Source: Natrarchaeobius halalkaliphilus
Lineage (GTDB): Archaea; Halobacteriota; Halobacteria; Halobacteriales; Natrialbaceae
DNA: 64,000 bases
Direction of reading: 5' to 3'
NCBI RefSeq assembly: GCF_003841485.1
Contig: NZ_REFY01000002.1
Span: 310,001-374,000, forward strand
Shown here: positions 15,296-20,560 of the stretch, in pieces
Numbering within the stretch: the stretch's first letter is position 1
How the letters are laid out: each line of letters opens with the position of its first letter
Notes under the pieces: model-generated
Told to the model about the DNA's origin: nothing
Databases searched by the model: none
Seen by the model: the letters and a program-made list of their open reading frames with translations, nothing else
Made by a program: the position numbers and the translations under genes

Positions 15296-15470
15296 GGGGT
15301 CGTGGCCAAGCCAGGGATGGCGACTGACTCCAGAGGTCCCGCGCCCGGGACGACACTCCAGACTGATATACTGATCGGACACCTGATCAGTGTCCGTGTG
15401 ATGACCCTCTGGAGTTCCGAGGCGCACCGGAGATATCAGTCGATCGGGGGTTCAAATCCCTCCGACCCCA
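15296..15470 (+). tRNA. tRNA-Trp (CCA), with intron
   Basis: The acceptor stem GGGGTCG (15296-15302) pairs with CGACCCC (15463-15469), with discriminator A15470 and no encoded CCA. The D stem is GCCA/TGGC. The anticodon stem ACTGA (15323-15327) pairs with TCAGT (15436-15440). The loop carries anticodon CCA at 15330-15332. The TTCAAAT T-loop is intact. An intron occupies 15334-15434, after position 37, as in the known haloarchaeal tRNA-Trp. The spliced anticodon loop reads CTCCAGA. The 3' end is the apparent left border of the island that follows. Confidence 0.95.
15334..15434 (+). ncRNA. tRNA-Trp intron with box C/D-like guide RNA features
   Basis: A 101-nt intron. A box C sequence GTGATGA (15398-15404) and CTGA boxes at 15363-15366 and 15371-15374 are visible. 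A perfect hairpin CGGACAC/GTGTCCG lies directly between one CTGA and box C, the geometry of a kink-turn. In Haloferax the corresponding intron guides 2'-O-methylation of the tRNA-Trp itself (established). The same role here is inferred from position and boxes. Confidence 0.8.
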
Positions 15471-15498: not shown

Positions 15499-15733
15499 CA
15501 GAGACGTCTTCTCTGGACAAAACTCGAAATACCTGTTACCGTATTTCCGGCCGTTTTTGGCAGGAATAATCTGATTTCTGATATACTTCTTTCCCTCCGG
15601 CGGTTCCTATCGTGTAGCGGTGAGCGGTCAGCATCGACGGAGCGCCGCGAGTGCCGGATGGGTGAAAGCCCGGCAATCCCGCCCGGACGAGCTGGCGCAA
15701 GCGAAGCGAGCGACCAGCCTCGTTCCGGCGAGG
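15499..15733. promoter_or_regulatory. Hairpin-rich region, candidate replication origin or rep leader
   Basis: Four hairpins follow each other: CAGAGA/TCTCTG (15499-15515, enclosing AGACGTCT), GCCGG/CCGGC (15653-15674), GCTGG/CCAGC (15691-15718) and CCTCG/CGAGG (15718-15733). They lie upstream of, or inside the doubtful 5' end of, the first gene of the rep operon. Double-strand origins of rolling-circle replicons are often hairpins next to rep. No nick-site consensus could be confirmed. Confidence 0.35.
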
Positions 15734-16149
15734 GAGCGGCGCGAAGGAGTTCTCAAACGACTGGTTCGCCTTCGTCAAAGCGGCTACTGACCGATGGGGG
15801 TCGTGTCGAGAGTGAACCGTCTCTCATTCGCTATCCACCAGTTAAGCCACCGACGATCTCCGAAACCGGCCAGGGTCACCGATACGTTCGCTGTACTCGC
15901 GGTGATAACGACGATACGGTCTATATTCACCAGCTCTGTGCGATCGCTGCTGGCGCTGATCCGTACGATGTCTTCGGTAAACAGTACGACGTCCGTCACG
16001 TCGTACCGACCGAGTGGCTCGGTCCTGACGCCAAGACTGCGAAGGGAACTCCAATTCTCAACACTACAGAGACGGTCGCTCTTGCGCCGATCTGGGCACG
16101 TTGTAGTGATCGGTTTGGGGAAATCGACAGATCGGAGGACGAAGCATGA
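15658..16149 (+). CDS. HNH-like protein, first gene of the rep operon
   Basis: The frame encodes up to 163 residues. The C-terminal part reads YVRCTRGDNDDTVYIHQLCAIAAG, then DVRHVVPTEWLG and GTPILNTTETV. This resembles the HNH endonuclease-like proteins of haloarchaeal plasmids and viruses, with one His of the usual pair replaced. About 45 N-terminal residues are low-complexity and overlap hairpins, so the true start may lie further in; no better ATG or GTG is available in frame. Its stop overlaps the next ATG (ATGA), implying translational coupling. Nuclease activity is uncertain. Confidence 0.55.
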   Translation: MGESPAIPPGRAGASEASDQPRSGEGAARRSSQTTGSPSSKRLLTDGGRVESEPSLIRYPPVKPPTISETGQGHRYVRCTRGDNDDTVYIHQLCAIAAGADPYDVFGKQYDVRHVVPTEWLGPDAKTAKGTPILNTTETVALAPIWARCSDRFGEIDRSEDEA

Positions 16150-16271
16150 CGGTCGTTTGTCGTCACTGCGGCAGGGTGATTCAAGAGCACGGAACAGCCG
16201 TGCTCGAGGATCGCTTTGTTCTTCGGATCTGTCCCGTTGCGAGTCGAACGCCCATCGTCGACGCACGGTGA
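16146..16271 (+). CDS. CxxC microprotein of the rep operon (41 residues)
   Basis: Encodes MTVVCRHCGRVIQEHGTAVL and a further 21 residues containing one more Cys. CRHCG is a zinc-knuckle half site and a His follows at position 15. The start codon overlaps the previous stop (ATGA), and the stop codon is followed immediately by the Rep ATG. This packing shows an operon and supports the gene despite its size. Small accessory genes before repA are known in the SNJ1/pHH205 replicon and are needed there for replication. Equivalence here is inference. Confidence 0.65.
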   Translation: MTVVCRHCGRVIQEHGTAVLEDRFVLRICPVASRTPIVDAR

Positions 16272-18299
16272 ATGGGGGCGCTTTCGGGCACACAGCAAGG
16301 TTGTAACAGATCCAGTTTAGTCCAGTACCTTGCTGACTGCGGCCTGATGGCTTACGGTCAACGTGACTCGAACGCGCTGACCGACCGAAACAGCGACCGC
16401 GTTCGAATTCTCAAGTTCCTTGCACGGCACCCAGAAGGCGTTTCCCAGACTGCGCTCTGTCACTTTGTGCTGAAAGGTGTTGCTCCTAGCGATTACTCGG
16501 GCCTCTACGATCTCTCAGGCGATGCCTACGAACGTCACGATGCTGCTGCTCAGTATTTTTACACCGGTAACGACTGGGTAGCGCTCGATGGCTCCGATGA
16601 TGACTACCAGTTCCTCAATCGATTCGTCAACGATCTCCAGGAGTGTACCGATCTCGTCCGTCTCGAGCACGTCGATCGCGACGACGAGCGGGGACGATGG
16701 GTCTACCCGACCCACCGCCTCCTTGACTTGATTTCGGAAGGCATTCGTGAAACACCGACCGCTTCGAACGAACTCGTCTACGACCGCGAGTTCGTACAGA
16801 ACATGCTCAAGACCTGTAGGAACAGCAGTTTCGACCTTACTGATTCCCAGAAAAACTTTGCAGCTCACGCACTTCGTCGTTACATCCAACGCACGCAGGA
16901 TTACCGATTACTCTTCGATGTGCACCTCGCTAACCGAAGCGGTTACGACCGTCGTCGTATGGAAAAGTCCTACAAAACCCGGTTTACTGACGAAGGGCGC
17001 GTGAACAAGGCTTTCGCGCGGCTTCAGTCAGCACTCGAATACGGCTACGAACGAGCTAAGAACGCCGTGTTCGTGACGCTCACGACTGATCCCGCGAAAC
17101 ATGATTCGCTGTGGGACGCTATACAGGCGATAAATCCGGCTTTTCACAACCTCACGCAGTTTTTCAAAACCGACCCTTCCACGGTCAAGGATACTCGAGA
17201 ATCCGTGGTTCCGTACTGGCGACCTGGACTCGACTCGTCGAACTTTCACTTCGGCCAAGAAGGTGTCGTGTCGGGCAGACCACGTGAACGTCTCGAGTAC
17301 GTCAAAGTGCTCGAATTTGACGGTGGCGGGAAACCACATCTACACTGTCTCTTTTTCGATGTTCCAACCCGTGAGAGCGACGGAATGCCGTGGTTGATCG
17401 ACAAAGACGAACTCTCACATCGCTGGGATCAGTACGGGCAAGGTCGAATCGGCGATCTGTACCCGCTTGCGTATCGTGACGATCTCGACGAAGTCGGTGA
17501 CTTCGGAGATCGCGTCGTCCGTGATGAGGACGGGACTCGTCTCAAAGATGAGGACGGCGAGTTTGTCACGGAACCCGTCGACGAAGGCTTCGTCTCCTGG
17601 TATCGATACGGCGATCACGATCACTCGCAGGAGTGGGTCGATGAGCACGTTCGGTATCACAAAGGAACGGACGGCCTGATCGATATGGACGGTGACGACG
17701 ACGTTCTACAGGAGAAAACTGCTGGTGCATACATCGGGAAGTACATCTCTGAGATGTACGGAACGCTCCTGGATCACAACGCTGCCGACGTCCCGGAGGA
17801 CTTCGATCCGGAACTCGATGCTGACGATGACGATGCGGCGTACTGGAAGCTCGCACTCTACTGGGCGACACAGCGCCAGTTTTGGAGTCCATCAAACGGG
17901 ATTCGCGATGCCATACGGCTCGACGATGATCGCACTGACATTCGTCGCGGTGTCGCTGATGCTACCAGAACATCACTCCTCGTTTCCGCTGAAGCACATC
18001 ACGAGCCTCATGCATCCTATCCCGATCTCGATTCGTCACGAACTGAGTCGCTGTTCCACGATCTCGTTCGTGACCTTCTCGCTGAACGCGAGCTCGAGGA
18101 AACTCGAGCGTCGGTCACGTCGACTACGCTTGCCCGAATCGATTACCTCGGTGCGTACCACTATTCGGACGTTCCCGACAGCGGTGATCGACGCGTGGAC
18201 GCTGCTGTGGTTGAGCAGGCGATACACGATCCGAACGAACCTGTTGTTCTTGCATCTTCTGGCGATAATCCACCACCTGTTGAAGACGTGTGGTCATAG
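16272..18299 (+). CDS. HUH-superfamily rolling-circle replication initiator
   Basis: Up to 675 residues. The N-terminal region has a winged-helix segment (RVRILKFLARHPEGVSQTALC). The HUH endonuclease motifs are in order. Motif 1 is VFVTLTTDP near residue 266. Motif 2 is PHLHCLFF with H356 and H358. Motif 3 is AYIGKYISEMYG with candidate nucleophiles Y487 and Y491. An acidic C terminus follows. Such proteins nick the origin and start rolling-circle replication; the SNJ1 RepA group is related to IS91 transposases. The ATG at 16272 directly follows the preceding stop. An ATG at 16347 is an alternative if the first 25 residues are not translated. Confidence 0.82.
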   Translation: MGALSGTQQGCNRSSLVQYLADCGLMAYGQRDSNALTDRNSDRVRILKFLARHPEGVSQTALCHFVLKGVAPSDYSGLYDLSGDAYERHDAAAQYFYTGNDWVALDGSDDDYQFLNRFVNDLQECTDLVRLEHVDRDDERGRWVYPTHRLLDLISEGIRETPTASNELVYDREFVQNMLKTCRNSSFDLTDSQKNFAAHALRRYIQRTQDYRLLFDVHLANRSGYDRRRMEKSYKTRFTDEGRVNKAFARLQSALEYGYERAKNAVFVTLTTDPAKHDSLWDAIQAINPAFHNLTQFFKTDPSTVKDTRESVVPYWRPGLDSSNFHFGQEGVVSGRPRERLEYVKVLEFDGGGKPHLHCLFFDVPTRESDGMPWLIDKDELSHRWDQYGQGRIGDLYPLAYRDDLDEVGDFGDRVVRDEDGTRLKDEDGEFVTEPVDEGFVSWYRYGDHDHSQEWVDEHVRYHKGTDGLIDMDGDDDVLQEKTAGAYIGKYISEMYGTLLDHNAADVPEDFDPELDADDDDAAYWKLALYWATQRQFWSPSNGIRDAIRLDDDRTDIRRGVADATRTSLLVSAEAHHEPHASYPDLDSSRTESLFHDLVRDLLAERELEETRASVTSTTLARIDYLGAYHYSDVPDSGDRRVDAAVVEQAIHDPNEPVVLASSGDNPPPVEDVWS

Positions 18300-18557: not shown

Positions 18558-18959
18558 ATGGCATCAATTCCAACAGAGTCTCGTGATTTGTTCAAGAAGA
18601 AGAAGACGTTCGCTCACCTGGCAACGCTCTTGCCGGATGGCGCACCTCATGTCGTTCCAGTTTGGGTGGAGTACGATGCCGATGCTGACCGTCTCTTGGT
18701 GAATACCCAACGTGGCCGCCGGAAGGAAAAAAATGTCCGCCAACAGTCACGAGTTGCCATCAGTATGACTGACCCAGATAACCCTTACCGGATGCTCTCG
18801 GTACGAGGTGAGGTCGACGACATCACTTCAGAAGGGGCACACGAGCAAGTCAACAGGATGGCGGAGCGCTATCTGGGAGACGGGGACTACGCTGACCCTC
18901 AGACAGAACGTGTTATCATCTCAATCAGACCTGAGCAAGTCAGCTACTCTGACTCGTAG
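18558..18959 (+). CDS. PPOX-class F420-dependent oxidoreductase-like protein
   Basis: A 133-residue split-barrel flavin-type protein of the pyridoxamine-phosphate-oxidase-like superfamily. Visible features are FAHLATLLPDGAPHVVPVWVEYD, NTQRGRRKEKNVRQQSRVAIS and MLSVRGEVDDIT, which fit the short F420-binding subgroup. It probably reduces a small substrate with F420H2; the substrate is unknown. It has its own promoter (TTTATTAG near 18527) and may be cargo of the island. The 258 bp before it hold no gene, only a short palindrome TTGGTTGACCAAT. Confidence 0.8.
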   Translation: MASIPTESRDLFKKKKTFAHLATLLPDGAPHVVPVWVEYDADADRLLVNTQRGRRKEKNVRQQSRVAISMTDPDNPYRMLSVRGEVDDITSEGAHEQVNRMAERYLGDGDYADPQTERVIISIRPEQVSYSDS

Positions 18960-19227: not shown

Positions 19228-19599
19228 ATGGCAACTAGTGATAGTTCTGGAGACGGGTTCCAGACAGCGACGGTATCGAGCGGGAACTACGATGGCGACG
19301 ATGCTGAATGGATTCCTCTCCCGGACGAAGGCGAAGTGATTCAGGGAATCATCCTTGCGATGACTCCAAACAGCGGAGACTACGATCAGCTGCGCGTCCG
19401 GTTCAAGTCGACCGACGGCGACGATGAAGGCGAGATTCGGCTCGCTCACTTCAACCAGACGCTCGAGGACACCGTTCACGAGAATGGAATCTCGGAAGGG
19501 TACGAGTTCCGCCTCGAAGGTGTCGACTCGTACGAGTGGACGGACGACGACGGCAACGAGCGCGAAGGAACCGAACGCGAGCTGGAGTACCGCGCCTGA
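19228..19599 (+). CDS. Acidic protein of unknown function in the tRNA-Trp island
   Basis: A 123-residue soluble protein. The N terminus is disordered (Ser/Gly/Asp). A beta-rich core follows (VIQGIILAMTPNSGDYDQLRVRFKS, EIRLAHFNQTLEDTV, YEFRLEGVDSYEWTD). The shape is compatible with an OB-fold-like or small beta-barrel protein, but I do not recognise the family. It lies 37 bp before the membrane protein gene on the same strand, so the two are probably one unit. A TATA-like TAGTATTTAG precedes it. The 268 bp upstream hold no gene. Confidence 0.6.
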   Translation: MATSDSSGDGFQTATVSSGNYDGDDAEWIPLPDEGEVIQGIILAMTPNSGDYDQLRVRFKSTDGDDEGEIRLAHFNQTLEDTVHENGISEGYEFRLEGVDSYEWTDDDGNEREGTERELEYRA

Positions 19600-19636: not shown

Positions 19637-20560
19637 ATGGCAAATCACAGAAACGGATTCGATCTGGGCGGAATGGCAAACGACTACGCAAACCTTCGAA
19701 CAGTCCCTGCGCTCCTGTCAATCGTCTTCGCGATGGCGTCGCTATACCAGTTCGGCGCTGTCGACGAAATTCACATCCAGTGGTTCGACTACACGCTGTC
19801 GAACACGCACGCTATCGGTGGCTCGCTCGGCGTGTACGTAATCGCGTTCATGTCGAGCCAGACCAAGAGCTTCGAGCACTACCAGGACTGGGAAAAGGTC
19901 ACGATTGCAGCCGGACCGATTCTCATACTCGGGTACGAATACTTGCCGTACCTGCCGTCGGTGATCGAATACCACGATCTCGCACTGTTCGGCCTGGTCG
20001 TCCTCACGCTTGCGGTCGTAGGCTTTTCGATCGCGCTCGTCGGCACTGCCGCTGCCGAAGAAACCTCCGCTGACGATCTCGAGGTCGAACACAACGACAC
20101 TGTCGTTGTCAACGCGACCTTCGCGGAAGACGGTGCGACTGCCGATCTCAACGTGACGATCGTCGCTGACGACAACGAGATTCTAGACGAGTCGACGCAC
20201 ACGCTCGAGGGCGACGAAAACGAGTCCGACGAGTGTCACGGGTTCTTCGATCGACTCGACGACGGCGACGGCGTCCTCGAACTCACGTTCCAGTCGGTAC
20301 GACGGGGCGTCGCCGCTTTCGCCGCGTCCCCGTCGGTCGAACGTGTATACGGTATAGTGCGCCTCGAGGCCGGAGCGAACCGGTCCCCACCTGGAGTGAT
20401 CCGCTGTCGTTCCGTGTACCAGTACGACTGGTGGGCCGCTCCCGGTCCGTTCGTACGCGATCGACGTGCCGTCTGCAGATTTGGCCGTCTTCATTGTCTT
20501 TTGACTTGCCGTTTATACCCTCAGCGAGACAACCAGTTCTATTCGCGTGACTCGTTGTGA
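19637..20560 (+). CDS. Membrane protein running into flanking DNA at the island edge
   Basis: The open frame has 307 codons, but only the first 195 or so look natural. They show three or four membrane helices (about 22-40, 54-72, 88-108 and 116-138). An acidic extracellular-type domain follows, with VVVNATFAEDGATADLNVTIVADDNEI. From about codon 197 (position 20226) the reading is antisense to the truncated hydrolase gene and becomes Arg-rich and unlikely. The native C terminus has therefore probably been replaced at the junction. The family is not recognised. It may be a structural or envelope-associated gene of the integrated element, which is speculation. Confidence 0.5.
   Translation: MANHRNGFDLGGMANDYANLRTVPALLSIVFAMASLYQFGAVDEIHIQWFDYTLSNTHAIGGSLGVYVIAFMSSQTKSFEHYQDWEKVTIAAGPILILGYEYLPYLPSVIEYHDLALFGLVVLTLAVVGFSIALVGTAAAEETSADDLEVEHNDTVVVNATFAEDGATADLNVTIVADDNEILDESTHTLEGDENESDECHGFFDRLDDGDGVLELTFQSVRRGVAAFAASPSVERVYGIVRLEAGANRSPPGVIRCRSVYQYDWWAAPGPFVRDRRAVCRFGRLHCLLTCRLYPQRDNQFYSRDSL
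20183..20494 (-). pseudogene. Truncated alpha/beta hydrolase
   Basis: The frame starts as a normal alpha/beta hydrolase: MKTAKSADGTSIAYERTGSG, PPVVLVHG (oxyanion HG), then FDRRGRGES and EEPVTLVG, which should lead into the nucleophile elbow GHSxGG. Instead, after VTLVG (20226) the sequence turns into antisense of the island membrane gene and soon ends. The nucleophile Ser, the acid and the His are all lost. About two thirds of a typical 260-280-residue enzyme is missing. This marks the right edge of the island, or of a deletion connected with it. Confidence 0.75.

Follow-up and report, generated by a model that had tools for sequence, protein, structure and literature searches.

A candidate cis-acting folded leader upstream of the rep operon in an apparent alphapleolipovirus-like provirus remnant of Natrarchaeobius halalkaliphilus

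Beside a tRNA gene of the haloarchaeon Natrarchaeobius halalkaliphilus, a folded leader, a variable set of small genes (HNH-like and CxxC) and a Rep gene are found in this order on one strand. On balance, an alphapleolipovirus-like provirus probably inserted at tRNA-Trp and later lost its right part, leaving this replication module, with a leader that acts in cis (most likely as a single-strand origin) and small genes that are accessory, the whole module being stranded. The operon was studied within a 64,000-nucleotide window, the whole stretch of DNA analyzed, which is part of a 667-kb contig (G000:C2). Relatives of Rep were matched in 50 of 391 genomes of the class and 8 of 125 genomes of the family. 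The comparisons below use 43 loci, namely the window and 42 of the stronger Rep matches; outside this set are G016:C6 (331 bits, two stops), G160, G301, further pieces of G393, and all weaker or shorter matches. The start of each rep gene was taken as the furthest ATG or GTG within 60 nt of the match.

The rep operon and its proviral surroundings

The operon consists of three genes on the forward strand. The first is an HNH-like ORF of 163 aa (15658..16149) with a conserved domain at 15784-16146, the second encodes a 41-aa microprotein with one CxxC motif (16146..16271), and the third encodes Rep, a putative HUH-type rolling-circle initiator of 675 aa (16272..18299). The HNH-like ORF and the microprotein gene overlap as ATGA at 16146-16149, and the latter abuts rep, its TGA being directly followed by ATG at 16269-16274. 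The first-pass annotation had described these as three fully coupled genes of one replication operon, and genes, junctions and coupling were all confirmed. Codon-position and pN/pS tests show purifying selection, so that all three ORFs are regarded as coding. Against relatives, pN/pS was 0.21-0.41 for the HNH core, 0.18-0.39 for Rep and 0.42-0.74 for the 41-aa gene, the last value coming from three sequences only and making the weakest of the three coding cases. The true start of the HNH-like protein is uncertain, because codons 1-32 overlap a conserved folded element, and loci that lack an HNH gene have this element too.

The presumed integration site (attL side) is a tRNA-Trp gene with a 105-nt intron at 15296..15470 on the forward strand (Rfam RF00005, 45.4 bits), which ARAGORN missed. 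An intron-bearing tRNA-Trp, recognized by the shared intron sequence, also precedes rep in two further genomes (G045 and G028), and a tRNA on the same strand was found upstream of rep in 37 of the 43 loci. Downstream of rep, the forward strand carries a pyridoxamine 5'-phosphate oxidase-like gene (18558..18959; Pfam PF01243, 4.5e-16) as cargo between rep and the virion genes. This is followed by an ORF2-like gene (19228..19599; phrog_6009), whose pleolipovirus homologs are small genes lying between rep and VP3, and by a homolog of the pleolipovirus VP3/VP4-type internal membrane protein (19637..20050; phrog_5900, 4.1e-42), whose ORF reads on to 20560 beyond the homology. The VP3 homolog matches HRPV-2 VP4 and Halfgib1 VP3 at 49% (tblastn). 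On the reverse strand lies an alpha/beta-hydrolase-like host gene (20183..20494) cut to 103 aa, the open frames of its best relatives being 277-297 aa long; the truncated gene appears to mark the right breakpoint of the remnant. No tblastn match at E ≤ 0.01 to a spike, NTPase or integrase was obtained in positions 5001-35000, and neither a second copy of the tRNA end nor a duplicated att site was found in the window. Because these parts are absent, the locus is read as a truncated pleolipovirus-like provirus remnant and not as a whole one. In this reading the operon forms the left end of the remnant, next to tRNA-Trp, and the right part (spike, ATPase, integrase and attR) has been lost along with part of the host gene.

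Known pleolipoviral elements share part of this layout. In HRPV-2 and HRPV-6 (Alphapleolipovirus), the Rep homolog ORF1 (46-47% identity) is followed in the same order by a small ORF and a VP3/VP4-type membrane protein; these are, however, complete isolated viruses, whose ORF1 is not directly preceded by an HNH-like or CxxC gene and in which the leader has no significant match. The Haloferax provirus Halfgib1 (MW344766) is likewise a tRNA-adjacent pleolipovirus provirus with a CxxC gene, rep, a small ORF and VP3, but its CxxC protein has 131 aa and two CxxC motifs, its leader is of a different type, an HNH-like gene is lacking, and spike, NTPase and integrase are present. As a separate observation, the lack of an integrase or a second att site in the window counts against the best explanation.

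Rep and the small genes upstream

Rep matched phrog_12863 at 1.9e-193 and, over nearly its whole length, ORF1 of HRPV-2 and HRPV-6 at 46% identity (tblastn), with 47% to HRPV-2 by blastp. Its motif residues are T269/T271/P274, H356/H358 and Y487/K490/Y491. Of these, T269, T271, H356, H358, Y487, K490 and Y491 are invariant across 28 aligned sequences; they make up the HUH motifs. Pfam REP_ORF2-G2P was matched by 25 of the 28 sequences at E ≤ 0.01. The predicted structure (pLDDT 62.4) had no significant match in PDB, where the Helitron transposase and geminivirus Rep appeared weakly, and a profile search of PDB sequences gave nothing. The case for an HUH protein is accordingly built on the motifs, sub-threshold Pfam matches and viral homology. 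On this evidence, Rep is assigned as an alphapleolipovirus ORF1-type rolling-circle initiator. Pattern scans of genome contigs and viral contigs with the single Rep gave no relatives, and there was no tblastn match to it in PLSDB. Membership in the Rep-Arvir family of SNJ2 was ruled out, since this Rep has HUH motifs and matches HUH-type families; Rep-Arvir is described as distinct from HUH in the SNJ2 report (PMC13107129).

The HNH-like gene was found in 8 of the 43 rep loci, seven by the HNH profile plus one stop-bearing copy in the L081 region. All eight profile matches above 130 bits in the 391 genomes adjoin this Rep family, seven of them being training sequences. In one genome (G393) only ~36 nt lie between the HNH gene and rep, and in another (G045) the gene is accompanied by two other small CxxC proteins, one abutting rep. 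All eight family members match phrog_7545 'HNH endonuclease' (best 6.8e-7), although the score of the window member by itself is only E 0.46. HRTV-4 holds a relative (E 1e-3) with an HNH annotation; a Pfam search gave nothing. The predicted fold (pLDDT 67.7) shows a strand-strand-helix order at the motif, and its best solved match is I-HmuI (E 0.042). Two histidines of I-HmuI-type HNH endonucleases, the first of the His pair and the later one, are missing from the window copy. Among the eight members, the pair is H-H in five, Y-H in one and R-H in two (the window and L035), and the later His, which follows an invariant Trp, is lost only in the window and the G064 copy, the same two that carry R-H. 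A changed His pair and a non-catalytic protein had been proposed beforehand. The change was confirmed as R-H, and with the later His gone as well the window copy is unlikely to be catalytic, which need not hold for most relatives. An IscB-associated omega RNA (HEARO) was also considered and rejected, as no such Rfam match was obtained and most copies of the folded element precede rep without an HNH gene.

The 41-aa gene was found in three of the 43 loci (the window, G028 and G064), by tblastn over part of the loci and by ORF listing for the rest. All three copies have the same length of 41 residues and the same distance to rep, and the earlier suggestion of a real gene that annotation easily misses was upheld. 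In the closest relative (G004, Rep 74%), neither the HNH-like nor the 41-aa gene lies within the 531 bp that its contig holds upstream. When ORFs were taken within about 1.1 kb upstream of rep (only 531 bp in L032), small ORFs with two CxxC motifs were found in 29 of the 43 loci, and an ORF with one CxxC adjoins rep in four more. Control counts of two-CxxC ORFs were 70 at 2077 random anchors and 9 at 147 starts of other large ORFs (3-6%). The first-pass annotation had staked its reading on the constancy of both small genes. This did not stand for the exact genes, both of which are missing from most related loci; it did stand for a class of small CxxC genes, of which most loci have a member ahead of rep. 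The small genes, though real, vary between loci, and genes so tightly coupled can belong to an accessory set that changes, as opposed to being fixed partners of Rep. A CxxC gene adjoining attP in pleolipoproviruses has already been published (PMC7911831).

The layout had also been likened to SNJ1/pHH205 (NC_003158), where two small overlapping genes (gp9 and gp10) stand directly before RepA. Comparison by blastp, however, gave no match better than E about 1 between Rep and RepA, and none better than E about 2 between either small gene and gp9/gp10, so that kinship was not borne out and identity with that replicon was rejected. With no meaningful similarity in any of the three proteins and with pleolipovirus genes as neighbors, a replicon of the SNJ1/pHH205 type, with a conserved pair of partner genes, is highly improbable here.

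The operon of SNJ2 (Betapleolipovirus) is similar in arrangement. According to PMC13107129, small coupled genes precede its rep and adjoin attP, and excision rebuilds the operon of small genes and rep, which is joined to the integrase gene only then. There, every gene of the operon was reportedly required for the rise in copy number, and a plasmid with Rep alone was unstable. In contrast to the operon described here, SNJ2 has Rep-Arvir and not an HUH protein. The hairpin proposed as its origin is on the downstream side of rep instead of the upstream side, which counts against the best explanation. It is by analogy with SNJ2 that a single transcription unit and an accessory role for the HNH-like and CxxC proteins are suggested.

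Structure and distribution of the folded leader

In the window, the leader (type R2) extends over 15635..15753 on the forward strand, where it overlaps codons 1-32 of the HNH ORF; it was delimited from alignments (A2/A4) and covariation. Leaders are about 120-190 nt long. The window copy scores 109 bits against model R2, of which it is a training member. It lacks about 50 nt present in relatives, including one strand of a long-range helix, and its folding relative to shuffles is modest (z -1.78); this copy is damaged and may be dead. The missing helix strand and the modest folding count against the best explanation. In other clades an element of about 169 nt (type R1) precedes rep, and it ends 57-58 nt from the chosen rep start in 17 of 21 loci. 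A third type (CCACCGC...GCGGTG, the Halfgib1 kind) was also aligned. It is linked to R1 by weak matches in L042, L043 and L046 (E 0.005-0.007), with L143 as a possible bridge. Rfam gave only BjrC68 on the leader (22.5 bits, below the gathering score of 39), which was taken as chance, and no leader family on seven related loci.

Compensatory changes were counted in two alignments. In the R1 alignment (A3, 17 distinct sequences), 11 of 50 pairs changed on both sides; the shuffle mean was 6.3, the observed count was reached by 1 of 500 shuffles, and slid controls gave at most 2. In the R2 alignment (A4, 12 sequences), the same was found for 9 of 23 pairs (shuffle mean 4.9, 0 of 500; slid controls at most 5), and each of the three pairs of the long-range helix showed compensatory variation. 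A measure of further pair types in A4 was not above shuffles (242/500). Since the structures were drawn from the same alignments and the sequences are related, these counts serve as support and not as probabilities. Cells with G-U outnumbered those with A-C (19:5 and 14:2), which favors function of the leader on the rep-sense strand. As judged from these alignments, what is conserved in the leader is the fold of a nucleic acid, with base pairs that change by compensation.

Conservation as coding sequence only, for a low-complexity tail of the HNH and CxxC proteins, is improbable. One frame does stay open across indels in the loci that carry HNH genes, and haloarchaeal DNA is GC-rich and prone to structure. 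However, the compensatory changes exceed the slid controls, and a frame used by CxxC genes elsewhere is interrupted by a stop in L057, L062, L069 and L080. Moreover, the leader is conserved as DNA; G004 has it although no HNH gene is seen there, and the plasmid pHLAJ5II has it with a different frame.

Strong R1 or R2 matches were found in 27 of the 43 loci, 24 of these being training members; the other 16 loci have none or weak ones. In the 391 class genomes, R1 was matched at E ≤ 1e-3 in 33. All 27 R1 matches at E ≤ 4.2e-7 lie upstream of a rep gene or overlap its 5' end: 21 (18 training) at this Rep family and six (L138-L143) at a kind related to the pHLAJ5II protein. The Rep proteins of L139, L141 and L143, the three that were scanned, all match Pfam DUF1424 'putative rep protein'. 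R2 was found in 12 of 125 family genomes at 13 places, of which six are before this Rep, three in pHLAJ5II-like plasmids, two before DUF1424 reps (G338) and two without a recognized rep nearby (G407 and G390). Two weaker R1 matches (L150 and L151) also have no recognized rep nearby. The plasmid pHLAJ5II itself (NZ_CP019287, from Halobiforma lacisalsi AJ5) has a leader of the window type in front of a Rep-like gene (90% over 79 nt, E 2e-19, blastn). The 603-aa product of that gene shows no meaningful similarity to the window Rep by blastp and resembles DUF1424-type Reps. Two different Rep families are directly preceded by the leader, which occurs both in proviruses and in small plasmids. No significant leader match was obtained in HRPV-1, -2 and -6 (R1 in HRPV-2 at 15.9 bits, E 0.07, is not claimed), and these viruses have no upstream CxxC gene. 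Both absences, like the non-significant structure search with Rep, count against the best explanation.

Many rolling-circle origins adjoin rep, and the leader is folded, upstream of rep and near att; it might then hold the double-strand origin nicked by Rep. This is unlikely, as the leader is common to Reps without meaningful similarity, which would be expected to use different nick sites.

Possible function of the leader

A single-strand origin is a folded, strand-specific element carried by different replicons, and the leader shows each of these features. The leader is read as a cis element of rolling-circle replicons. Given these features, its occurrence with more than one Rep family and the rolling-circle mode of the replicons, a single-strand origin is favored, with a rep-leader RNA nearly as likely. 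Taken by itself, a structured 5' RNA of the rep transcript (an attenuator or antisense-RNA target) that sets Rep synthesis, and so copy number, and is not an origin, is a tentative possibility. It would account for the constant rep-sense orientation, the spacing of R1 to rep, the tolerance of G-U pairs and the translated frames that overlap the leader. Against it stand the leaders of G390, G407, L150 and L151, which adjoin no recognized rep, and the sharing of the leader by different Rep families. We lean somewhat towards regarding the leader superfamily (R1, R2 and relatives) as a portable cis module of haloarchaeal rolling-circle replicons, a single-strand origin or a copy-number RNA, that moves between Rep families, viruses and plasmids and doubles as coding sequence for the tails of CxxC and HNH proteins.

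With the leader taken as a single-strand origin, the following sequence of events can be proposed. In the intact virus, excision would bring the rep and integrase ends together, and a single transcription unit would then run through the leader, the small genes and rep, as in SNJ2. Rep would nick the circle and start rolling-circle replication, and the small zinc and HNH-like proteins would serve as accessory stability or regulatory factors, again as in SNJ2. On the rep-sense strand the leader would have a cis role, most likely that of a single-strand origin for the strand displaced in replication, a rep-leader RNA being the main alternative. In the present genome, the module is stranded and its leader damaged.

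No earlier account of such a leader was found in a literature search of titles and opening abstracts; subscription journals were mostly outside its coverage, so absence from print is unproven. Passage searches of PMC13107129, PMC7911831 and PMC5867852 showed no such element for alphapleolipoviruses. The change of accessory genes at this locus is a warning against building models of a complex on a single genome. For second-strand synthesis and copy-number control in alphapleolipoviruses and small haloarchaeal plasmids, a folded element that is conserved alongside rep genes offers a short target for mutation, and its covariance model a means of finding new replicons.

Genes flanking rep in the window and in a related genome

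At the left end of the provirus remnant lies a tRNA-Trp gene (15296-15470) containing a 105-nt intron, which was detected by Rfam only and was overlooked by ARAGORN. Downstream of rep, the gene for the HUH-type rolling-circle initiator (16272-18299), a pyridoxamine-phosphate-oxidase-like gene (18558-18959) is found between rep and the virion genes and appears to be cargo. The right end of the remnant carries a 103-aa fragment of an alpha/beta-hydrolase (20183-20494), whose relatives are 277-297 aa long. In genome G045 (locus L033, 11754-12187 region), two further tiny CxxC proteins of 41 and 54 aa are encoded between the HNH-like gene and rep, and the second of the two genes runs directly up to the rep ATG.

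Settings of the leader copies

The leader, a conserved folded element (DNA or RNA) upstream of rep, was also found in pHLAJ5II (NZ_CP019287), a 3760-bp haloarchaeal plasmid. Here a copy of the window type, R2, (L094 906-1050) lies upstream of the Rep-like gene of the plasmid, which is unannotated. In G266, the leader type named for the Haloferax provirus Halfgib1 is tandemly duplicated upstream of rep (L043 9826-9958 and 10037-10169). Other copies were found without a recognised rep: L150 2991-3115 and L151 2991-3115 combine features of R2 and of R1, the type of other clades, and in G407 an RNase H gene comes after a copy (L144 3052-3197) that has no adjacent rep.

A recurrent stem in the variable helix

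The variable helix of the L033, L034, L138, L140, and L142 leaders contains a stem ending in GCGACC-TTTA-GGAGCG or a close variant, which occurs in leaders of both the R1 and R2 types. Such a stem is also present in HRPV-2 and HRPV-6 upstream of ORF1, the counterpart of rep in these viruses.
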